Assembly (NCBI RefSeq): GCF_017833035.1
Contig: NZ_JAFIBM010000001.1
Location: 806,001-870,000, forward strand
Length of the DNA stretch: 64,000 nucleotides
Direction: 5' to 3'
Source of the DNA: Frigoribacterium sp. PvP032
GTDB lineage: Bacteria > Actinomycetota > Actinomycetes > Actinomycetales > Microbacteriaceae
Both the position numbers and the translations under genes were made by a program. The first letter of the stretch is position 1. Each line of letters starts with the position of its first letter. This document shows positions 10,396-64,000 of the stretch, piece after piece. Below the pieces are notes generated by a model. That model did no database searches, was not told the DNA's origin, and worked only from the letters and a program-made list of their open reading frames with translations.

Positions 10396-10417
10396 CGCGG
10401 GGCAGGGGGTGTAGCTC
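10348..10417 (+). terminator. Nested inverted repeat spanning the hmuV stop codon
   Basis: Outer arms GAGCTACACCCCC (10348-10360) and GGGGGTGTAGCTC (10405-10417) are perfect 13-bp inverted repeats. Inner arms TACACCC (10371-10377) and GGGTGTA (10388-10394) form a second stem. The TAG stop (10393-10395) lies in the inner stem. There is no T tail. It probably terminates the hmuUV transcript, although four repeats of the same (G)GGTGTA core could also be protein-binding half-sites. Confidence 0.6.
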
Positions 10418-10463
10418 GGCCGTCGCGCGCGCCGATACTGTCGACGGAGACCCGAGGAGGCCC

Positions 10464-11669
10464 ATGAGCACGCCCGCACCAGCCGACGCACCCGTGCCGG
10501 AGAGCACACGCGAGCGCTGGGACCACGTCGTCGTCGGCGCCGGCGTGATCGGCGCGGCGACCGCGCGGGCCCTCGCCCGACTCGGCGGCAGCAGCGGCGG
10601 CGGCAGCGACGGCGGCGCCCGCGTGCTGCTCGTCGAGCAGTTCGGCCGCGGCCACGACCGCGGCTCGTCGCACGGCGCCAGCCGGATCTTCCGTCGCGGC
10701 TACACCGCCGACGACTGGGTCGGGCTCACCGGCGACGCGATCGCGGCCTGGCAGCAGCTCGAGGCCGAGACGGGCCGCACCCTGCTCGACTTCACCGGCG
10801 CCCTCGACCACGGCGACCCTGTCGTGCTCGACGAGATCCAGGCGGCGCTCGAGCGCGGCGGCGTCGCCCACGAACGCCTCACCCCCGACGAAGCCGGCGC
10901 GCGCTGGCCGGGCCTCCGCTTCGACACGAGCGTGTTGTTCCACGCGCAGGCGGGCCGGGTCCGCTCGGCCGACGCGGTCGAGGCGCTGCTCGACAGCGCC
11001 GCCGCCGCGGGCGCCGAGCTCCGCTTCGAGACCGCCCTCGCGGGGATCGAGACCGAAGGCGGCGACGTCGTGCTCCGTCTCGAGGGCGCAGGAGGCGCCT
11101 CCTCGACGGTCGTGTCGACCAGCGTCGTGCTGGCGGTCGGCTCCTGGGCGCACTACCTCGCCGGCGATCTCGTGAGGCGCGGGGGAGCGTCGCTGCCCGA
11201 GGTCAGGGTCACGCAGGAGGAGCCCGCCCACTTCGCGACGGAGCTGCCCGACGACGCCTGGCCGAGCTTCGTGCACCACCCGACCGACCCGGCGCTGCGG
11301 GCCAGGGTCAGCACGATCTACGGGCTGCTCACCCCGGGCGAGGGCGTCAAGGTCGGGACCCACGGCACCGGTCGCGAGGTGCACCCCGACGCCCGCCTGC
11401 CGTCGCCCGGCGCGGACGGCCAGGCCGTGCTCCGCGACTACGTCTCCCAGTGGGTGCCCGGGGTCGACGTCGACACGCTCGCGCCGATCAGCTGCCTCTA
11501 CGACACGACCCCGACGGAGGACCCGGTGCTCGACCGAGTCGGCTCCGTCACGGTCGCGACGGGGTTCTCGGGGCACGGCTTCAAGTTCGGCGCCGTCTTC
11601 GGCGAGCTGCTGGCGGGGGTCGCGACAGGGACTCCCGCACCCGAGCGGTTCCGGCTGCGGCGCGGCTGA
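10464..11669 (+). CDS. Sarcosine oxidase / N-methyltryptophan oxidase-like FAD enzyme
   Basis: The protein has 401 residues; ATG 10464 follows GAGGAGG. The N-terminal Rossmann motif VVVGAGVIGAATARALA binds FAD, followed by the family segment GSSHGASRIFRRGY. ISCLYDTTPTEDPVLDR near residue 344 carries the Cys that holds FAD covalently in monomeric sarcosine oxidases, and ATGFSGHGFKFG is the conserved C-terminal signature. It is expected to oxidise a secondary N-methyl amine such as sarcosine to the amine, formaldehyde and H2O2. A Gly/Ser/Asp-rich insert (about residues 43-53) interrupts the first beta-alpha unit, which is unusual. Family is firm; substrate is open. Confidence 0.88.
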   Translation: MSTPAPADAPVPESTRERWDHVVVGAGVIGAATARALARLGGSSGGGSDGGARVLLVEQFGRGHDRGSSHGASRIFRRGYTADDWVGLTGDAIAAWQQLEAETGRTLLDFTGALDHGDPVVLDEIQAALERGGVAHERLTPDEAGARWPGLRFDTSVLFHAQAGRVRSADAVEALLDSAAAAGAELRFETALAGIETEGGDVVLRLEGAGGASSTVVSTSVVLAVGSWAHYLAGDLVRRGGASLPEVRVTQEEPAHFATELPDDAWPSFVHHPTDPALRARVSTIYGLLTPGEGVKVGTHGTGREVHPDARLPSPGADGQAVLRDYVSQWVPGVDVDTLAPISCLYDTTPTEDPVLDRVGSVTVATGFSGHGFKFGAVFGELLAGVATGTPAPERFRLRRG

Positions 11670-53799: not shown

Positions 53800-53974
53800 G
53801 GTCCGTCTCCCTGATCTCGTGCCCGCGAGTCGGTGAGCAGCAGGGCTGCCTCGCGTGCGGCACCCCCCCGGTGCCGTGCCTCAACGGTAGCCACGGGGGT
53901 GCGGACGGACAAGGCTGTCCGCCCCTCTCGCAGCCAGCTGTCGGCCACGGCGTCCCCCGGCTCGACGCCGTCTC

Positions 53975-54047
53975 CGTCGAGGGCGGGTCGCTTGCGTCGA
54001 GGGCGGGTGCGCAGCGACCCGCCCTCGACGCAGTCGACCCGCCCTCG
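53975..54047. repeat. GTCGAGGGCGGGTC hairpin cluster upstream of the uvrA-like gene
   Basis: CGTCGAGGGCGGGTCGCT (53975-53992) and its exact complement (54013-54030) form an 18-bp stem. The loop itself contains another copy of the same core, and a further inverted copy follows at about 54034-54047. The core recurs at 60361-60600. The rest of the gap 53800-54081 shows only the weak promoter before the uvrA-like gene. Confidence 0.8.
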
Positions 54048-54081
54048 GCATCGCGCGGCCGCACCGCCTACGATCGCCCGG
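54045..54081 (+). promoter_or_regulatory. Leaderless-type promoter of the uvrA-like gene
   Basis: TACGAT (54069-54074) ends 7 nt before ATG 54082, and TCGGCA (54045-54050) is a moderate -35 at 18 bp. There is no Shine-Dalgarno sequence. The -35 lies at the edge of the hairpin cluster. Confidence 0.5.
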
Positions 54082-56697
54082 ATGCCCTCCTCACGCTCGC
54101 GCGCCTCCTCGACACCTGCCGACGCACCTGCTGACGCACCCGCCGACGCACCTGCCGACGCGTCCGCGAACGCCCCCGCCCCCGTACCGGCCGACGCACC
54201 CGGCGCGCCCGTGCCCGCCGGCGCGCCCGCGCCCGGGACCGGCGCGCTCGCCGACGGCTTCGTCCGCGTCCGCGGCGCCCGCGAGAACAACCTGCGCGAC
54301 GTCGACGTCGACGTGCCCCGAGACCGCATCGTCGCGTTCACGGGAGTCTCGGGATCGGGCAAGTCGTCGCTCGCGTTCGGCACGATCTTCGCGGAGGCGC
54401 AGCGCCGGTTCCTGGAGTCGGTCGCGCCCTACGCCCGTCGCCTCATCGCGCAGGGCAGCACCCCGCACGTCGCGTCGATCACGGGCCTGCCGCCGGCCGT
54501 CGCCCTGCAGCAGCGCCGTGGGGCGCCGAGCTCCCGCTCGACCGTCGGCACGCTCACGACCCTCTCGAACTCCACCCGCATGCTCTGGTCGCGGGCAGGC
54601 AGCTACCCCGCGGGCGCCGAGCGGCTCGAGTCCGATTCCTTCTCGCCGAACACCGTCGCCGGCGCCTGTCCGCGCTGCCACGGGCTCGGCATCGCGCACG
54701 AGGTCACCGAGGCCTCGGCCGTGCACGACGACTCGCTGAGCATCCGCGACGGAGCCATCGCCGCCTGGCCCGGCGCCTGGCAGGGCAAGAACCTCCGCGA
54801 CGTCACCGCGGTGCTCGGCTACGACATCGACCGGCCGTGGCGCGAGCTGCCGAGGGCCGACCGCGACTGGCTCCTCTTCACCGAGGAGCAGCCCGTCGTC
54901 GAGGTGGTGCCCCAGCGCGACCGCGTCGCGAAGCCCTACAAGGGCCGGTTCTGGAGCGCCCGCGCCTTCGTGCTGCACACCCTCGCCGACTCCCAGAGCG
55001 AGACGCAGCGCGCCAAGGTGCTCCAGTTCGTCGAGTCGGGCCCGTGCTCGCTCTGCGGCGGCACCGGCCTGACGAGGGCGGCGCTCGCCGTGACCTTCGC
55101 CGGCCGCACGATCGCCGAGCTGAACGGGCTGCCCCTGTCCGAGGTCGCCGAGGTGCTGCGGCCGACCGCCTCGTTGGCGCACGCGACCGCGGCGACCTCG
55201 CGCGCCTCCTCGGGCGAGGGCACCGAGGTCGCCGTGACCATCGCTCGGGACCTGCTGTCGAGGGTCGAGGTGCTCACGGGGCTCGGGCTCGGCTACCTCA
55301 GCCTCGACCGCGCGACGCCGACGCTGTCGCCGGGCGAGATGCAGCGGCTGCGCATCGCGACGCAGCTGCGCTCCGGCCTGTTCGGCGTGGTCTACGTGCT
55401 CGACGAGCCGAGCGCCGGCCTGCACCCGGCCGACGCGGAGTCGCTGGTCGAGGTGCTCGAGGCCCTCCGCGCCGGGGGCAACAGCGTGTTCGTCGTCGAG
55501 CACGACATGGAGATCGTCCGTCGCGCCGACTGGGTCGTCGACGTCGGGCCCGGCGCCGGCACCGGGGGAGGAGAGGTGCTCTACAGCGGCCCCGTCGACG
55601 GCCTCGCCGACGTCGAGGCGTCGGTCACGCGACGGTTCCTCGCACCGCGCCGTGACGCAGGTGTCGTGCGTCAGGGCCGGGGCGACGCAGCCGAGGAGGC
55701 GCGCGGCACCCCCGAGGACGCACCGACCGAGCGTGCCCCCCGCGTCCCGACCGCGTGGCTCGAGCTGCGCGACGTCGCCCGGCACAACCTCCGCGCCCTC
55801 GACGTCGACGTGCCGCTCGGGGTGCTCACCGCCGTCACGGGCGTGTCCGGCTCGGGCAAGTCGAGCCTCGTCGGCGGCGTCCTCGCCGAGCGCGCGACCG
55901 ACCACCCGCTGGTCGACCGCGTGGTGCAGGTCGACCAGGCGCCGATCGGGCGCACCCCGCGGTCGAACCTCGCGACCTACACCGGCCTGTTCGACGCGGT
56001 GCGCGCCTCCTTCGCGGCCACCGACGAGGCGAGGGCCAGGGGCTGGGGCGCCGGGCGGTTCTCGTTCAACGTGGTCGGCGGCCGCTGTGAGGTCTGCCAG
56101 GGCGAGGGCTCGGTCACGGTCGAGCTGTTGTTCCTGCCGGGCAGCTGGGCGCCGTGCCCGGAGTGCCACGGTGCGCGCTACACCGCCGAGACCCTCGAGG
56201 TGACCTGGCACGGAGCGACGATCGCGGACGTGCTCGGGATGACCGTCGACGAGGCCGAGGGGTTCCTCGGCGACGTGCCGGCCGCCTCCCGCGCGCTCTC
56301 GACCCTGCGGCAGGTGGGCCTCGGCTACCTGCGGCTGGGGCAGCCGGCGCCGGAGCTGTCGGGCGGCGAGGCGCAGCGGATCAAGCTCGCGACCGAGCTG
56401 CAGCGGATGCGAGGCGGCAACACCCTGTACCTGCTCGACGAGCCGACCACCGGCCTGCACCCGGCCGACGTGGAGCTGCTCGTCGCGCAGCTGCAGCGCC
56501 TCGTCGACGCGGGCAGCACGGTCGTCGTTGTCGAGCACGCGATGGACGTCGTCGCGGCCGCCGACCACGTGATCGACCTCGGGCCCGGCGGGGGAGACGC
56601 GGGCGGGCAGGTCGTCGCGACGGGCACGCCGCGCGAGGTCGCCGCGTCGCGTGCCAGCCGCACGGCGCCGTACCTGGCGCGAGCCCTCGCCCGCTGA
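54082..56697 (+). CDS. UvrA-like ABC ATPase (UvrA2/DrrC type)
   Basis: The protein has 871 residues, shorter than UvrA (about 950). An Ala/Pro/Asp low-complexity start (about 55 residues) is followed by two ABC halves. Walker A is FTGVSGSGKSSLAFGTIF and TGVSGSGKSSLVGGVL; signatures are LSPGEMQRLRIA and LSGGEAQRIKLA; Walker B is VYVLDEPSAGLH and LYLLDEPTTGLH. Zinc motifs CPRCHGLG, CSLCGGTG, CEVCQGEG and CPECHGARY are intact. The reduced length fits UvrA2-type proteins that lack part of the UvrB-binding region and are linked to drug tolerance. It precedes a TetR regulator and an MMPL transporter, supporting a resistance role over general repair. Confidence 0.92.
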   Translation: MPSSRSRASSTPADAPADAPADAPADASANAPAPVPADAPGAPVPAGAPAPGTGALADGFVRVRGARENNLRDVDVDVPRDRIVAFTGVSGSGKSSLAFGTIFAEAQRRFLESVAPYARRLIAQGSTPHVASITGLPPAVALQQRRGAPSSRSTVGTLTTLSNSTRMLWSRAGSYPAGAERLESDSFSPNTVAGACPRCHGLGIAHEVTEASAVHDDSLSIRDGAIAAWPGAWQGKNLRDVTAVLGYDIDRPWRELPRADRDWLLFTEEQPVVEVVPQRDRVAKPYKGRFWSARAFVLHTLADSQSETQRAKVLQFVESGPCSLCGGTGLTRAALAVTFAGRTIAELNGLPLSEVAEVLRPTASLAHATAATSRASSGEGTEVAVTIARDLLSRVEVLTGLGLGYLSLDRATPTLSPGEMQRLRIATQLRSGLFGVVYVLDEPSAGLHPADAESLVEVLEALRAGGNSVFVVEHDMEIVRRADWVVDVGPGAGTGGGEVLYSGPVDGLADVEASVTRRFLAPRRDAGVVRQGRGDAAEEARGTPEDAPTERAPRVPTAWLELRDVARHNLRALDVDVPLGVLTAVTGVSGSGKSSLVGGVLAERATDHPLVDRVVQVDQAPIGRTPRSNLATYTGLFDAVRASFAATDEARARGWGAGRFSFNVVGGRCEVCQGEGSVTVELLFLPGSWAPCPECHGARYTAETLEVTWHGATIADVLGMTVDEAEGFLGDVPAASRALSTLRQVGLGYLRLGQPAPELSGGEAQRIKLATELQRMRGGNTLYLLDEPTTGLHPADVELLVAQLQRLVDAGSTVVVVEHAMDVVAAADHVIDLGPGGGDAGGQVVATGTPREVAASRASRTAPYLARALAR

Positions 56698-56763
56698 GGA
56701 GGCCGGCCGAACTTCCCAGCGATTCCCCACCCTGGCGCCGTGCACCGAGTGCGTCGCTGCACT

Positions 56764-56776
56764 TAGTGTAGGCAGG
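56764..56776 (+). promoter_or_regulatory. -10 hexamer of a leaderless tetR mRNA
   Basis: TAGTGT (56764-56769) ends 6 nt before GTG 56776; TGCACC at 56741-56746 is a poor -35 at 17 bp. CACTTAGTG around the hexamer is a small inverted repeat that could be part of an autoregulatory operator. Confidence 0.4.
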
Positions 56777-57426
56777 TGCCCTCGACCGCCCCCGCCCTCG
56801 ACCGACGTGCCGCCCTCAAGGCGCGGCACCGTCAGGCGATCCTCGACGCGGCCGACGCCCTGATCGCCGAGCAGGGCGCCCCGCGCTTCAGCGTCGACGA
56901 GCTGGCCGACCGGGCCGACGTGTCGCGCCGCACGATCTTCAACCACTTCGCGAGCCTCGACGAGGTCGTGATGACGCTCTGCACGGCGGCGCTGACCGAC
57001 GCCATCGACGAGTTCCAGACGGCCACGGCGGCCGTGGCGACCTCCGAGGTCGCCGGGACCCGCTCCTCCTTGTTCGACGAGGTGGTGCTCGCCCTGCGCA
57101 GCATCGACCTGCCCGCCGTGGTCGCGTACCTCTGGCGCGTGCTCGACGGCGATGCCGAGGCGAACGGGGCGAACAAGGGCGTGCAGGACGTCTTCTCCCG
57201 CGCGACCGAGCACCTCGCCGCCGACGCCGCCCGGCGCAGCATCGCGGTCGACCAGCTCGACGTCGAGCTCCTCGTGAGCTCGCTGCTGCACGGCATCGCC
57301 GTGATCGCCGAGCACTGGGTGCGCCGTACCGACGGCGCCCTCGACGACGAGGGCCGGGCCGTCTGGGCCGAGCTGCTCGACCGCCTCGTGACCAGCGTGC
57401 GCACCGGCTACGCGCCTCCCGACTGA
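56776..57426 (+). CDS. TetR-family regulator of the MMPL transporter
   Basis: The protein has 216 residues, starting at GTG 56776. The DNA-binding domain is RHRQAILDAADALIAEQGAPRFSVDELADRADVSRRTIFNHFASLDEVVMTLCTAAL. The C-terminal helices (about 75-216) form the ligand pocket and dimer face. It sits 78 bp after the uvrA-like gene and 123 bp before the MMPL gene, all in one direction. The usual logic is repression of the exporter until a toxic compound binds; that is inference from position. Confidence 0.9.
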   Translation: MPSTAPALDRRAALKARHRQAILDAADALIAEQGAPRFSVDELADRADVSRRTIFNHFASLDEVVMTLCTAALTDAIDEFQTATAAVATSEVAGTRSSLFDEVVLALRSIDLPAVVAYLWRVLDGDAEANGANKGVQDVFSRATEHLAADAARRSIAVDQLDVELLVSSLLHGIAVIAEHWVRRTDGALDDEGRAVWAELLDRLVTSVRTGYAPPD

Positions 57427-57549
57427 CCCGCCCAGCCCGACCCCCACCCCCTGCCCGACCCCCACCTCCTTCCCGACGACGCGACGCGAGGCTCCACCAC
57501 CCCACGGACCGACCACCGGCCCACCGCACCACCAGGAGGACGACCGCCC

Positions 57550-60180
57550 ATGGCATCCCTGCTCTACCGACTCGGCCGGCTCTCGGCCCGACGCGCCTGG
57601 GTGGTGATCGCCGCGTGGATCGTCGTGCTCGGCCTCGCCGGCGGCTCGTTCGCCCTCTTCGGCGGCACCCTCACCACCGCCGTGAGCATCCCCGGGACGA
57701 AGACGCAGGAGGTGTCGGACCAGCTGGCGGACGAGTTCCCGCAGGCGAGCGGAGGCACGGGCTCGGTCGTCTTCACGACCAGCGACGACAGCGCCTTCAC
57801 CGCCGACCAGCAGGCCGACATCGTCTCGCTGCTCGGCAGCATGACCGACCTCGACGACGTCAAGGGCACGGTCGACCCGTTCGCCACGCAGGCGCAGCTC
57901 GCCGACTCGCAGTCGCAGATCGACTCCGGTCGTCAGCAGATCGCGGACGGCCGCACCCAGATCGAGTCCGGCCAGGCGCAGATCGACGCCGCGCAGGCGC
58001 AGCTGACCGCGGGCCAGCAGCAGCTCGACGCCGCTCGGGCCCAGGCGGAGGCCGCCGGCCAGCTCGACGCCGCGCAGGCGCAGCTCGACGCGCAGCAGGC
58101 ACAGCTCACGGCTGGTCAGCAGCAGATCGACACGCAGCAGTCCACCCTCGACTCGAGCCTCTCCGAGCTCGAGACGCAGGAGACGACCCTCGAGGACGGC
58201 GCCTCGCTGCTCGACCTCTCGTCCGGCATCCGCCAGGTGTCCGAGGACGGCACCACGGCCGTCGCGACCGTCCAGTTCGACAAGGCGCTCAACCTGGTGC
58301 CCTCCGAGGCGAAGGAGGCGGTCGTCTCGCACCTGGAGGACGCCGACATCGCCGGCGTCGACGTCGAGGTCTCGAACGACATCGCCGCCACGATCCCCGA
58401 GATCCTCGGCCCTGGCGAGGTGGGCGGCGTGATCATCGCCGCGATCGTCCTGTTCGTCATGCTCGGCACCCTGATCGGCGCAGGCCTGCCCCTGCTCAAC
58501 GCCCTGATCGGCGTCGGCGTCGGCGTGCTCGCGTCGCTGTCGCTGTCGGGCGCCGTCGAGATGCTGTCGGTCACGCCCGTGCTGGGCGTGATGCTGGGCC
58601 TCGCGGTCGGCATCGACTACTCGCTCTTCATCCTCAACAGGCACCGGACGCAGCTCAAGGCCGGCGTGCCGCTCGACGAGTCGATCGGGCTCGCCAACGG
58701 CACCTCGGGCAACGCCGTCGTGTTCGCCGGCTCGACCGTGCTCATCGCCCTGCTCGCCCTCAACCTGACGGGGATCCCCTTCCTCGGCCTGATGGGCACC
58801 GTCGGCGCGGTCTGCGTGTTCGTCGCCATCCTCATCGCGATCACGCTGACCCCGGCGCTGCTGCGCCTCGTCGGCCCGCGCATCCTCACCAAGAAGGCGC
58901 GTGCCGCGGTCGGCCGCACCGGTGCCGTGAAGGTGCCGTCGAAGCCCATGGGCACCGGTCGTGCCGTGCTGACGCTGGTCGCCGGCGTCGCCGTGCTGCT
59001 GATCATCGCGATCCCGGCGCTCTCGATGCGCCTCGGGCTGCCCGCCGGCTCGTCCGAGCCCGTCGACTCGAGCGCCTACAAGGCGTACAAGATCGTCGAG
59101 GACAAGTTCGGGGCCGGCGTCAACGGGCCCCTGCTCGTCGTCGCCGACCTCGACGAGGCAGTCTCGGAGGACGACCTCGTCGCCGAGCAGGTGCGCGTCG
59201 GCACCGAGCTGGCCGCCCAGGACGACGTCGCCGCGATCGCCCCCATCGGCGCCTCGGACGACGACACCCTGCTCGCGTTCCAGGTCGTGCCGGAGGGCGG
59301 GCCGACGGCCGAGTCGACCGAGCAGCTCGTCCGCGACCTGCGCGCGCTCGACGTCGAGGGCGTCTCGTCGCTCGGCGTCGCCGGGAACGCCTCAGGCAAC
59401 ATCGACGTCAGCGAGAAGCTCGCCGCGGCCCTGCCGCTGTACCTGCTCGTCGTCGTCGGGCTGTCGCTGATCATCCTGATCTTCGTGTTCCGGTCGATCC
59501 TCGTGCCGGTGACGGCGACGCTCGGGTTCGTGCTCTCGCTGTTCGCCGCGTTCGGCGGCGTGACCGCGGTGTTCCAGTGGGGCTGGCTGGGGCCGGTGTT
59601 CGGGGTGCACGACCCCGGGCCGATCCTGAGCTTCCTGCCGATCCTGATGGTCGGCGTGCTGTTCGGGCTCGCGATGGACTACCAGCTGTTCCTGGTGAGC
59701 GGCATGCGGGAGTCGTACGCCCACGGGTCGCCGGCACGGCTCGCCGTCCAGCGCGGCGTGCACGCGGGACGCACCGTGGTCGTCGCCGCGGCGCTGATCA
59801 TGGCGGCGGTCTTCTCGGGCTTCGTGTTCTCGAACTCCGTGATGATCCAGTCCATCGGGCTGGGGCTCGCCCTCGGCGTGCTCGTCGACGCGTTCGTCGT
59901 CCGCCTGCTGCTCATCCCCGCGGTGATGCACCTGCTCGGCGACGCCGCCTGGTGGATCCCGAAGTGGCTCGACCGCATCCTGCCCGACGTCGACGTGGAG
60001 GGCGCGTCGCTCGAGCGCTCGCACCCGGGCGCCGGTGCTGATGGCTCGGGTCAGGGCGCGGGTTCGGGCTCCGGCTCGAGCTCCGGCTCGGCGGACGCCG
60101 TGTCGCACGTCGCGGCCGAGGCTCCCCTCGACGCCGAGACGTCGACCCGGCACCACGGGGACGGCGCCCACCGGGCCTGA
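57550..60180 (+). CDS. MMPL/RND-family membrane transporter with coiled-coil insert
   Basis: The protein has 876 residues; ATG 57550 follows AGGAGG. The N-terminal helix LSARRAWVVIAAWIVVLGLAGGSFALFGGTL starts an MMPL protein with two homologous halves of six spans. GVMLGLAVGIDYSLFILNRHRTQLKAGVPLDESIGLANGTSGNAVVFAGSTVLIALLAL and ILMVGVLFGLAMDYQLFLVSGMRES carry the GxxxDY motif of the proton relay in each half. Between helix 1 and 2 a Gln/Ala heptad stretch (about 115-225) forms a coiled coil in the extracellular domain. The C-terminus is Gly/Ser-rich. It exports lipids, siderophores or drugs; cargo unknown. A 13-bp hairpin terminator follows. Confidence 0.93.
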   Translation: MASLLYRLGRLSARRAWVVIAAWIVVLGLAGGSFALFGGTLTTAVSIPGTKTQEVSDQLADEFPQASGGTGSVVFTTSDDSAFTADQQADIVSLLGSMTDLDDVKGTVDPFATQAQLADSQSQIDSGRQQIADGRTQIESGQAQIDAAQAQLTAGQQQLDAARAQAEAAGQLDAAQAQLDAQQAQLTAGQQQIDTQQSTLDSSLSELETQETTLEDGASLLDLSSGIRQVSEDGTTAVATVQFDKALNLVPSEAKEAVVSHLEDADIAGVDVEVSNDIAATIPEILGPGEVGGVIIAAIVLFVMLGTLIGAGLPLLNALIGVGVGVLASLSLSGAVEMLSVTPVLGVMLGLAVGIDYSLFILNRHRTQLKAGVPLDESIGLANGTSGNAVVFAGSTVLIALLALNLTGIPFLGLMGTVGAVCVFVAILIAITLTPALLRLVGPRILTKKARAAVGRTGAVKVPSKPMGTGRAVLTLVAGVAVLLIIAIPALSMRLGLPAGSSEPVDSSAYKAYKIVEDKFGAGVNGPLLVVADLDEAVSEDDLVAEQVRVGTELAAQDDVAAIAPIGASDDDTLLAFQVVPEGGPTAESTEQLVRDLRALDVEGVSSLGVAGNASGNIDVSEKLAAALPLYLLVVVGLSLIILIFVFRSILVPVTATLGFVLSLFAAFGGVTAVFQWGWLGPVFGVHDPGPILSFLPILMVGVLFGLAMDYQLFLVSGMRESYAHGSPARLAVQRGVHAGRTVVVAAALIMAAVFSGFVFSNSVMIQSIGLGLALGVLVDAFVVRLLLIPAVMHLLGDAAWWIPKWLDRILPDVDVEGASLERSHPGAGADGSGQGAGSGSGSSSGSADAVSHVAAEAPLDAETSTRHHGDGAHRA

Positions 60181-60736: not shown

Positions 60737-62179
60737 GTGAACACACCCGTCGACGCGTCCCGTCCGACCATCTTCTTCCTGCACGCGCTCGGCATGAGCG
60801 CGCGCGAGTTCGACGGCGTCGCCGCCCGGCTCGCCGACACGGCCGACGTGGTCGCGCTCGACCTGCCCGGCTTCGGCGACGCGAGCGCCGCCTCCGGCGT
60901 CACGGTCGACGACATGGTCGCGCTCGTCGTCCGCAAGGTGCGGCGTCACGCGCCCGGCCGGTGGGTGCTGGTCGGCCACAGCATGGGCGGCAAGATCGCG
61001 TCGGTGGTGGCCTCGCGTGCCCTCGCCGGCGAACACGGGCTCTTCGGCCTGAGCGGCGTCGTGCTGCTCGCGGCCTCGCCGCCGACCCCCGAGCCGATGA
61101 GCGACGCCGACCGTGCCGAGAAGCGGGCGATGGCCGACGGAGGCGCGCTCGACGCCGCGTCGGCGCGTGCGTTCGTCGACGCGAACGTGGGCGCGCCGCT
61201 CGACCCGACGTCCGACGCGACGGCGGTCGGCGACGTGCAGCGCGCCTCCGCCGAGGCCTGGACGGCCTGGTTCGACCGCGGCAGCCGAGAAGACTGGTCA
61301 GAGGCGGTCGGCGTGCTCGACGTGCCCGCCGTCATCCTCGCGGGCGGCAGCGACGGCGACCTCGGCGAGGCGGCACAGCGAGAGCTCAACAGCCGGGTCT
61401 ACCCGCGGGCCCAGGTGCACGTGCTCGAGGGCGCCGGGCACCTGCTGCCCCTCGAGCGTCCCGAGGAGGTCGCAGCCGCGATCCTCGACTTCTGGCGCGA
61501 CGAGGCGGGCACCGGCCCGGTCGTGCCCGTCGACGTGGTCCGCACCCTCGCCTCCTCACGGGTCAGCACGCAGACGCGGGCGCTGCACGCGCGGCGGGTC
61601 CTGGCCGACGACCCCCGGTACGCCCCCACCGTGCTCGACGAGGTGCAGCTGCGCACCCTGCGCGAGCTGAGCGACCGCATCGTGCCGCAGCGGGCTCCCG
61701 AGCCGCACCAGGCGATCGACCTGGCCGCACGGGTCGACGCGCAGGTCGGCTCCGGCCGCGGCGACGGCTGGCGCAACGCCGCGCTGCCGCCCGACCCTGA
61801 GGCCTACCGCCGCGGGCTCGACGAGCTGGCAGGGTTCGGCGACCTGCCGCGGGCCGAGCAGGACGCCCTCGTCACGGCGATCATCGCAGGCGAGCACGAG
61901 CCCCGTGCCGACGACTTCACCGCCGAGCAGATGACCCTCTGGTTCGAGGACTGCCGGGTCGACCTCGTCCGCACGTGGCTCTCCCACCCGGCGACGATGT
62001 CGCGCATCGGCTACGACGGCTACGCGAACGGTGGCGACGGGCCGCGGTTCCAGGGCTTCCAGCTGCTGGCCGCCGACGCCCGAGAAGCGTGGGAACCGAC
62101 CATGGGGGCAGCACCCACGCAAGCAGCACCCACGCAGGCAGCATCGACGCAAGCAGCACCGACGGAGGCAGCACGATGA
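60737..62179 (+). CDS. Alpha/beta-hydrolase fused to gluconate 2-dehydrogenase subunit 3-like domain
   Basis: GTG 60737, with GAGGAG 5 nt upstream, gives 480 residues. Residues 10-255 are an alpha/beta hydrolase: TIFFLHALGMSAREFDG (oxyanion loop), LVGHSMGGKIAS (nucleophile Ser82), LAGGSDGDLG (probable Asp206) and LEGAGHLLPLERP (His235). From about 270 to 455 a helical domain (LDEVQLRTLRELSDRIVPQ, IDLAARVDAQVG, DALVTAIIAGEHEP, LWFEDCRVDLVRTWLSHPATMSRIGYDGYANGG) matches the small subunit of gluconate-type dehydrogenases. The tail is a short APTQA repeat. No Tat signal. The next gene, the flavin subunit, overlaps by four bases. The hydrolase may open a lactone product (inference). Confidence 0.85.
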   Translation: MNTPVDASRPTIFFLHALGMSAREFDGVAARLADTADVVALDLPGFGDASAASGVTVDDMVALVVRKVRRHAPGRWVLVGHSMGGKIASVVASRALAGEHGLFGLSGVVLLAASPPTPEPMSDADRAEKRAMADGGALDAASARAFVDANVGAPLDPTSDATAVGDVQRASAEAWTAWFDRGSREDWSEAVGVLDVPAVILAGGSDGDLGEAAQRELNSRVYPRAQVHVLEGAGHLLPLERPEEVAAAILDFWRDEAGTGPVVPVDVVRTLASSRVSTQTRALHARRVLADDPRYAPTVLDEVQLRTLRELSDRIVPQRAPEPHQAIDLAARVDAQVGSGRGDGWRNAALPPDPEAYRRGLDELAGFGDLPRAEQDALVTAIIAGEHEPRADDFTAEQMTLWFEDCRVDLVRTWLSHPATMSRIGYDGYANGGDGPRFQGFQLLAADAREAWEPTMGAAPTQAAPTQAASTQAAPTEAAR

Positions 62180-63825
62180 AGCTCGACGACATGACCACCT
62201 ACGGGCACGACGAGGTCGTCGACGCCGTCGTCGTGGGCACCGGAGCCGGAGGCGCGCCCCTGCTGGCGAAGCTGGCCGCGGCCGGCCTGCGAGTCGTCGC
62301 GATCGAGGCAGGGCCGAACTTCGAGCCCGAGCAGTACACGAACGACGAGGACGCGGGCACGGCCATCAACTGGATGGACGAGCGCCTCAGCGACGGTGAC
62401 GACCCGAACGCGTTCGGCCCGAACAACTCCGGTCGCGGCGTCGGCGGCTCGACCCTGCACTGGGGCGCCTTCGTGCCCCGGCCCGACGAGCGCGACCTGC
62501 ACCTGAAGTCCGTCACGGGCTCGGGCGTCGACTGGCCCGTCGACTCCGCCGAGGTGACGCGCTACATCGAGCAGGTCGAGGCGTTCGTCGGCGTCTCGGG
62601 GCCGAGCGACTACCCGTGGGATCCCTCGCGGCACTATGCGTACCCGCCCGCCGGGCGCAACGCGGCGGCCGACATGATGGTGCGCGGCTGCGACGCCGTC
62701 GGCATCCGCACTGCCGACGCCCCCGAGGCGCTCATCACCCACGACCACCACCAGGAGCACGCGGGCCTCCGCCATGCCTGCGTCAGCTGCGGCAGCTGCC
62801 ACCAGGGCTGCCGCAACGGCGCCAAGGTCAGCATGGACGTCACGTACCTGCCGAGCGCGGTCGCCCACGGCGCCGAGATCCGTCCCGACTCGACGGTGAC
62901 GGGGATCGAGACCGACGAGCACGGCGAGGTCACGGCCGTCGTCTACGTGCACGACGGCGTCGAGCACCGGCAGCGCACCGCTGCCCTGTTCCTCTGCGCC
63001 GGCGGCGTCGAGACCCCACGGCTGTTGCTGCACACGGGGCTCGCGAACAGCAGCGACCAGGTCGGTCGCAACTTCATGTGCCACGGTGCCACCCAGGTCT
63101 GGGGCACCTTCGAGGGCGAGATGCGCGGGCACCGCGGCTACCCGTCGTCGATCATCACCGAAGACCTGCGGGCGCCTGCCGACGCCGACTTCGTCGGGGG
63201 CTACCTGATCCAGAGCCTCGGCGTCCCGCCGCTCACCCTCGCCACCACGTTGGTGCGCGGCGGCGGGCTCTGGGGCGACGAGCTGGCCGACGTCATCGGC
63301 GGCTACCGCCACCTGTCGGGCATCGGCATCAACGCCGAGTGCCTGCCGAGCGACGACAACCGCCTCGTCCTCTCCGACGAGCTCGACGAGGTCGGCGTGC
63401 CCAAGGCGCGCATCTCGTTCACGGCGGGCCCGAACGAGCAGGCCATCGACGAGCACGCCATCCGCACGATGACGTCGATCGTCGAGGCCGCGGGCGGCAC
63501 CGACATCCGGGTCCTGGCGCGCACCGCGCACACCCTCGGCACCTGCCGGATGGGCGACGACGCGGCAGACGCCGTGGTCGACCCCGACGGCCGCAGCTTC
63601 GACGTCGCGAACCTGTGGGTCTGCGACAACTCGACGTTCCCCAGCGCCGTCGTCGCGAACCCGGCGCTGTTGCAGATGGCGATGTCGCTCCGCACGGCCG
63701 ACCGGTTCCTGGCGCAGCACCCGACCGCCTCGATCGTCGAGGTGCGCGACGGCGGGGCCGACAGCGGGGCCGACGGCGACGCGGCGCAGGACGACGCGGC
63801 CGACCGCCGTACCCTGGTCTCATGA
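62176..63825 (+). CDS. GMC oxidoreductase, gluconate/glucose dehydrogenase flavin subunit type
   Basis: The protein has 549 residues. [30 protein letters not shown] (about 17-46) binds FAD, and [21 protein letters not shown] is the GMC signature. Cys202, Cys205, Cys208 and Cys212 form a CxxCxxCxxxC motif ([17 protein letters not shown]), in the region where bacterial FAD glucose dehydrogenases carry an Fe-S cluster. [40 protein letters not shown] and the [12 protein letters not shown] end hold the catalytic His and Asn. It probably oxidises a sugar or sugar acid; its electron acceptor is unknown because no cytochrome gene is seen. It overlaps deoC by four bases. Confidence 0.92.
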
Positions 63826-64000
63826 CCGAGAAGACCCTCACCAGCGCCGACGCGGCGCGCCTGATCGACCACACCCTGCTCAAGCCCGAGGCGACACGTG
63901 CCGACGTCGACGCACTGATCGCCGAGGCCGTCGAGCTCGGCACGTACTCGGTCTGCGTCTCGCCGTCGATGCTGCCCCTCGTGCTCCCTGAAGGCACCGA
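63822..64000 (+). CDS. deoC: Deoxyribose-phosphate aldolase, N-terminal part (3' cut by window)
   Basis: About 59 residues are present before the window ends. ATG 63822 overlaps the GMC stop (ATGA). [43 protein letters not shown] contains the DHTLLKP motif and VCVSP strand of DeoC. The enzyme splits 2-deoxyribose-5-phosphate into glyceraldehyde-3-phosphate and acetaldehyde. Coupling to a GMC dehydrogenase is unusual and may mean deoxyribose or a related sugar feeds both enzymes (inference). The catalytic lysine lies outside the window. Confidence 0.92.

Follow-up and report, generated by a model that had tools for sequence, protein, structure and literature searches.

The window analysed here is a 64,000-nucleotide stretch of the genome of Frigoribacterium sp. 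PvP032 (3.33 Mb, one contig), corresponding to C1:806001-870000. Close to its end lies a gene that codes for an alpha/beta-hydrolase fused to a Gluconate_2-dh3 (Gdh3) domain, followed by a gene for a GMC flavoprotein and by deoC (Table 1). Both the fusion and its coordinates had been proposed in a preliminary description made from the sequence alone, and they are borne out by the translation and by the Pfam domains. A ribosome-binding site (GAGGAG) stands 5' of the GTG start at 60737, and the preceding gene stops at 60180. The same description mentioned three stop codons overlapping the next starts; we find only two such overlaps, both ATGA, between the fusion and GMC genes (62176-62179) and between the GMC gene and deoC (63822-63825).

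Table 1. Features of the fusion/GMC locus, in positions of the 64,000-nucleotide window.
Feature	Position	Strand	Remarks
Fusion gene (alpha/beta-hydrolase + Gluconate_2-dh3)	60737..62179	+	480 aa, GTG start
Hydrolase domain	60752..61501	+	residues ~6-255
Triad codon Ser82	60980-60982	+	
Triad codon Asp206	61352-61354	+	
Triad codon His235	61439-61441	+	
Gdh3 (PF13618) domain	61532..62104	+	residues ~266-456
GMC flavoprotein gene	62176..63825	+	549 aa; His95 (FAD), His452/Asn495 (catalytic pair) by alignment with BcGDH
Cys202/205/208/212, probable Fe-S ligands	62779..62811	+	alignment with BcGDH, conservation
deoC	63822..64000	+	cut by the window end, continues to genome C1:870520; not counted as part of the system

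The N-terminal half of the fusion is an alpha/beta-hydrolase by its score, its fold and its Ser-Asp-His triad. Abhydrolase_6 (PF12697) matches residues 12-248 (E 2.6e-22; 81 bits for a cut-off of 26.3), and the triad Ser82-Asp206-His235 is located where it had been placed at the outset. The structure predicted for 456 residues from alignment A1, which contains 22 fusions, has a mean predicted local distance difference test score (pLDDT) of 91.2 and a predicted template modelling score of 0.89. Among the 50 structural matches listed, residues 1-256 of this model resemble esterases, haloperoxidases and an enol-lactonase (Z 25.8-29.6, 16-27% identity). These proteins, e.g. 5h3h, 2xua (the enol-lactonase) and 7dq9, share the fold and the nucleophile elbow of the fusion but are not fused to a Gdh3 domain. 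The top match is a feruloyl esterase, in the sequence search as in Foldseek. None of the NCBIfam families listed passes its cut-off for the hydrolase, and the equivalog cut-off of the 3-oxoadipate enol-lactonase PcaD (TIGR02427) is not reached (67.3 vs 255.85 bits).

The C-terminal half matches Gluconate_2-dh3 (PF13618) at residues 304-423 (E 1e-7; 32.8 bits for a cut-off of 23.4), a domain that is also matched by 10 of 11 aligned Gdh3 domains. A profile of Gdh3 domains recovered one of 20 other Gdh3/GMC loci, weakly. As stated early on, the proteins carry no twin-arginine translocation (Tat) signal: judged by RR alone, no such pair lies near either N-terminus, the first being at residue 69 of the fusion and at residue 544 of the GMC protein. 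The companion remark, that no cytochrome c gene is present, also holds for the 20 kb around the locus (genome C1:862001-882000). In these 20 kb CxxCH occurs only in a UvrA-like frame, in the GMC motif described below and in one antisense frame.

The fusion recurs in many genomes. A first contig scan gave 20 loci. Two are stand-alone hydrolases of Hymenobacter; the other 18, found in Frigoribacterium, Frondihabitans and Rathayibacter, all have a GMC gene. For the census of 398 Microbacteriaceae genomes we preferred A1 as query to PF13618, which recovered 22 of the 72 loci. Some match to A1 at E 1e-15 was obtained in 119 genomes; at most four candidates were scored per genome, so that some copies may be missed. 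The Gdh3 half is kept in 72 loci spread over 19 of the 85 genera of the family sample, 66 with the full fusion and six with an eroded hydrolase half. In the genus of the window all 10 sampled genomes have the locus, two of them in the eroded state. A GMC gene is adjacent on the same strand in 72 of 72 loci; in 69 its match begins no more than 36 bases from where the fusion frame ends (119, 296 and 467 bases in the others). Two samples of 396 genomes each, one drawn from the order and one from the phylum and both overlapping with the family, were searched at E 1e-20; outside the family they yield the fusion in a single genome, which belongs to another family (G562, locus L114). Within the full fusions the triad is almost invariant: Ser82 and His235 are present in 66 of 66 and Asp206 in 65, the remaining one (L053) having an Asp two residues off.

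An assembly or frameshift error joining two normally separate genes had been suspected at about 61510-61560. Close stand-alone hydrolases do occur, in five genomes of the order (L115-L119, no Gdh3 or GMC match in 9 kb) and in three of the family (G087, G384 and G056, no such match in 5.8-7.5 kb). But the same in-frame fusion in 66 family genomes and in one of another family, together with the confident model, rules such an artefact out and leaves it a negligible likelihood. A Gdh3 gene may have captured an ordinary hydrolase gene. The database search suggested with the preliminary description thus returns a common architecture; no known substrate was found for it, and common occurrence with a known substrate, which had been raised there, is verified in its first part only. 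We found no description of the fusion in open-licence papers of PubMed Central, a collection in which preprints were not covered; the “GMC” of PMC13083937 is the name of a strain and not this protein. Judging from these genomes, fusion and GMC gene are a widespread and conserved arrangement, a variant of the Gdh3/GMC dehydrogenase kind and not a separate kind.

The closest solved relatives of the GMC protein are the catalytic subunits of Burkholderia cepacia FAD-glucose dehydrogenase (BcGDH) and of fructose dehydrogenase (FDH), with E about 1e-39. According to the article on BcGDH (PMC6719666), Cys212, Cys218 and Cys222 hold a [3Fe-4S] cluster, Cys213 is bonded to the small subunit, His105 is the probable link to the flavin adenine dinucleotide (FAD), His476 and Asn519 are the likely catalytic pair, and Asn475 and Asn474 are the counterparts of ligand-contacting residues of cellobiose dehydrogenase. 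In our alignment the three cluster cysteines correspond to Cys202, Cys208 and Cys212, His105 to His95, and His476/Asn519 to His452/Asn495, while Cys213 corresponds to Val203 and Asn475/Asn474 to Ala451/Thr450. Thus the cluster site, the FAD site and the catalytic pair are retained, and the disulfide and the sugar contacts are not. Over the 72 loci (one to three rows have no letter at some sites) His95, His452 and Asn495 are kept wherever they can be read, i.e. in 70, 71 and 69 rows respectively. Position 451 is Ala in 70 of the 71 readable relatives and Asn in none, and the sugar dehydrogenase first proposed loses its footing at this pair of residues.

The CxxCxxCxxxC motif that had been pointed out in the GMC partner consists of Cys202, Cys205, Cys208 and Cys212. 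Of the 72 loci, 41 have all four cysteines and 28 have none; the other 3 have three, lacking only the equivalent of Cys205, and therefore carry the exact ligand set of BcGDH. Cys202, Cys208 and Cys212 are gained or lost jointly (44 of 72 each). On a tree of Gdh3 and GMC sequences, where the cysteine state of L019 is unreadable, their presence or absence requires two changes, against a minimum of 16 with shuffled labels. This joint behaviour is good, if indirect, evidence for a single cofactor held by all three. Cys205 is probably a fourth ligand, which would make the cluster [4Fe-4S].

Within the same motif the string CGSCH (62788-62802) mimics, as a CxxCH, a heme-c site. Attachment of heme c takes place outside the cytoplasm. 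We rejected this site by inference, the protein being taken as cytoplasmic and the His of CGSCHQ being retained in 72 of 72 loci, including the 28 where the cysteines are lost. This conservation suggests that the His has another role.

BcGDH (6a2u, 8grj) and the Gluconobacter-type FDH (7w2j) likewise associate a GMC catalytic subunit with a small partner of Gdh3 or hitchhiker type, and, with the residue equivalences given above, fusion and GMC protein look built to work like BcGDH alpha/gamma. The differences are as follows: the Tat start is missing, no cytochrome gene occurs in 20 kb, Val203 stands in place of Cys213, the sugar-contact Asn pair is replaced, the motif has one cysteine more, and the small subunit bears a fused hydrolase. 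This subunit is the Tat hitchhiker of the known exported relatives; its counterpart here lacks an export signal and has the hydrolase attached. By its sequence the system is not a member of the exported BcGDH/FDH complexes, as the Tat small subunit, the triheme cytochrome c gene (in the 20 kb around the locus) and Cys213 are all absent. Two other arrangements of the same domains occur in Microbacteriaceae. The first comprises separate, cytoplasmic-looking Gdh3 and GMC genes (L086-L092) with about 39% GMC identity, a Cx5Cx3C motif and no hydrolase. The second, present in many genomes of the family, is a single Gdh3-GMC chain of about 710 aa (L038, L039, L041-L044, L046, L048, L052 and similar) with the same two domains, a cysteine-rich CxxCxxCxxxxC motif and no hydrolase. 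The strongest PF13618 matches in the family adjoin GMC genes devoid of these cysteines.

We consider it rather probable that the two genes encode a cytoplasmic, two-subunit Fe-S FAD dehydrogenase resembling the alpha/gamma core of BcGDH, the small subunit of which carries an auxiliary esterase or lactonase. In such a complex the GMC subunit would oxidise an alcohol by means of the FAD held by His95 and of His452/Asn495, and electrons would pass from the FAD to the Fe-S cluster on Cys202/208/212, probably [4Fe-4S] with Cys205. The small subunit, devoid of export signal, would carry the N-terminal hydrolase of esterase/lactonase type. This hydrolase probably acts next to the oxidation step, its substrate being either an ester that precedes this step or a lactone that results from it; it may in addition contribute to holding the protein together.

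Several results weigh against this assignment. The Gdh3 half has no credible sequence match among solved structures, the small subunit of BcGDH included, and the matches listed by the structure search with the whole fusion were all hydrolases. Of the GMC partners 28 of 72 are cysteine-free, so the enzyme can dispense with the cluster. The neighbouring genes differ between genera, none being common to all lineages, and give no clue to the substrate. Lastly, in eight loci (the six above and L018 and L019 of Rathayibacter) the catalytic Ser is lost and the cap is deleted, and the intact or eroded state switches at least five times on the Gdh3+GMC tree (74 rows).

The order of the two reactions can be envisaged in either direction. 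If the GMC subunit makes a lactone, as the preliminary description supposed, the fused hydrolase could open it at once. The related glucose dehydrogenase forms a lactone and the enol-lactonase 2xua is among the structural matches of the hydrolase. Many lactones open spontaneously, and this would account for the losses of the hydrolase. But the sugar-contacting Asn pair of BcGDH is not kept, the hydrolase is as near to esterases as to lactonases, no sugar genes common to the loci were found among the neighbours examined, and the dehydrogenase persists in at least five lineages whose hydrolase active site is gone. Opening of a lactone is thus possible, rather unlikely when taken by itself, and not preferred over ester hydrolysis. 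Conversely the hydrolase could release an alcohol from an ester for oxidation by the GMC subunit. This agrees with the feruloyl esterase as top match and with the frequency of esterases among the structural matches, and loss of the hydrolase would leave the use of free alcohol. We give this order the same rather low likelihood.

In the eight eroded loci the segments that should hold the triad Asp and His are either absent or unalignable, and Gdh3 and GMC are kept. The hydrolase remnant is an open frame made up of residues in and around beta5-alphaC-beta6 (consensus ...LSGxxGLFGLAGLVL) and of the helix immediately preceding Gdh3, an open frame being weak proof of function in such G+C-rich DNA. 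With shuffled labels the number of intact/eroded switches is 7.7 on average and 6 at the minimum. The five eroded groups correspond to five genera, namely g1, g12, g17, g45 with the named Rathayibacter, and g85, some nearby branches of the tree being weak. Another tree left out eleven loci by hand (same genomes or near-duplicates); in it L020 appears without Ser only because its contig begins inside the gene. The ratio of nonsynonymous to synonymous substitution rates (dN/dS) was obtained for 15 pairs, two of them without a value and one identical. Between eroded copies it is 0.33-0.55 in the beta5-beta6 stretch, 0.31-0.40 in Gdh3, 0.34-1.49 in the N-terminal piece and 0.45-0.72 in the tail; between eroded and intact copies it is 0.24-0.71 in the beta5-beta6 stretch. 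We read these values as a relaxed but not absent constraint on the remnant. The model of eroded L192, with the seven others as alignment, shows a small alpha/beta domain and the Gdh3 helices (pLDDT 82), and Foldseek gave no match to it at E 0.001. In L022 and L019, both Rathayibacter contigs, the GMC gene beside the fusion is broken across two reading frames, which points either to errors in the sequence or to the system being lost there in its entirety.

The hydrolase fold could then be mainly structural in the complex at present, with marginal catalysis. Such a role is favoured by the reduction of the hydrolase, at least five separate times, to a remnant in which beta5-alphaC-beta6 survives, by the dN/dS of this stretch between eroded copies and by the predicted folding of the remnant. 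Against it stand the near-invariant triad of the 66 full fusions, which points to catalysis, the looser dN/dS between eroded and intact copies and in the N-terminal piece, and the lack of a significant Foldseek match for the remnant; a mainly structural hydrolase appears improbable.

The deoC gene had been taken as a hint of a deoxy sugar or nucleoside-derived substrate. Sufficient flanking sequence was available for 59 of the family-sample loci, 13 of 90 rows being too short in this respect. The gene adjoins the pair directly downstream in only 4 of these 59, which belong to a single Frigoribacterium subclade, and in 3 of the 18 loci of named genera, apparently among those four; moreover it is the single copy of the genome. 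With an adjacency confined to close relatives, deoC was rejected as a pathway partner, and the deoxy sugar reading is not supported. Beyond deoC the first discernible genes are on the opposite strand. Further downstream of the window, L003:9718-15293 holds frames for an ABC ATPase and for an ABC-3 type permease (10413-11405), with several lipoprotein-like frames; together they look like a metal uptake locus, the names other than that of the permease coming from reading alone. Upstream, on the + strand of 53833-60180, the translations read as a UvrA-like frame with zinc-finger-type CxxC pairs, a TetR-type regulator (56776-57426) and an MMPL-type transporter (57550-60180).

In other genera, an SDR oxidoreductase adjoins the fusion/GMC pair in g12 and g84 (L076:1049-1945, L079:5988-6884), and a similar one is found in g77 (L077:5005-5901); its best NCBIfam name is PRK06128, below the cut-off. 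Frames of 819-853 aa in L047, L071 and L075 were considered as triple fusions and rejected: their extra length overlaps an SDR gene in another frame, to which the SDR of L077 is 87-88% alike. An NMT1-type ABC transporter lies beside the locus in Rathayibacter and in g45, which may be the same genus.

A further proposal, which we hold as tentative and on balance doubtful, is that the small subunit has turned from a Tat export helper into the carrier of a second enzyme for a cytoplasmic [4Fe-4S] GMC dehydrogenase, bringing hydrolysis and oxidation into one complex. The hydrolase would also be structural, and would have been repeatedly pared down to a similar dead alpha/beta mini-domain instead of being removed. 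Setting deoC aside removes a misleading clue to the substrate. If our interpretation is true, it illustrates how a sugar-dehydrogenase-type complex can turn its small hitchhiker subunit into the bearer of a second enzyme. A single bacterial family supplies natural variants, with four, three or no cysteines and with a live or dead hydrolase, whose comparison may show what the Fe-S cluster and the hydrolase each contribute.

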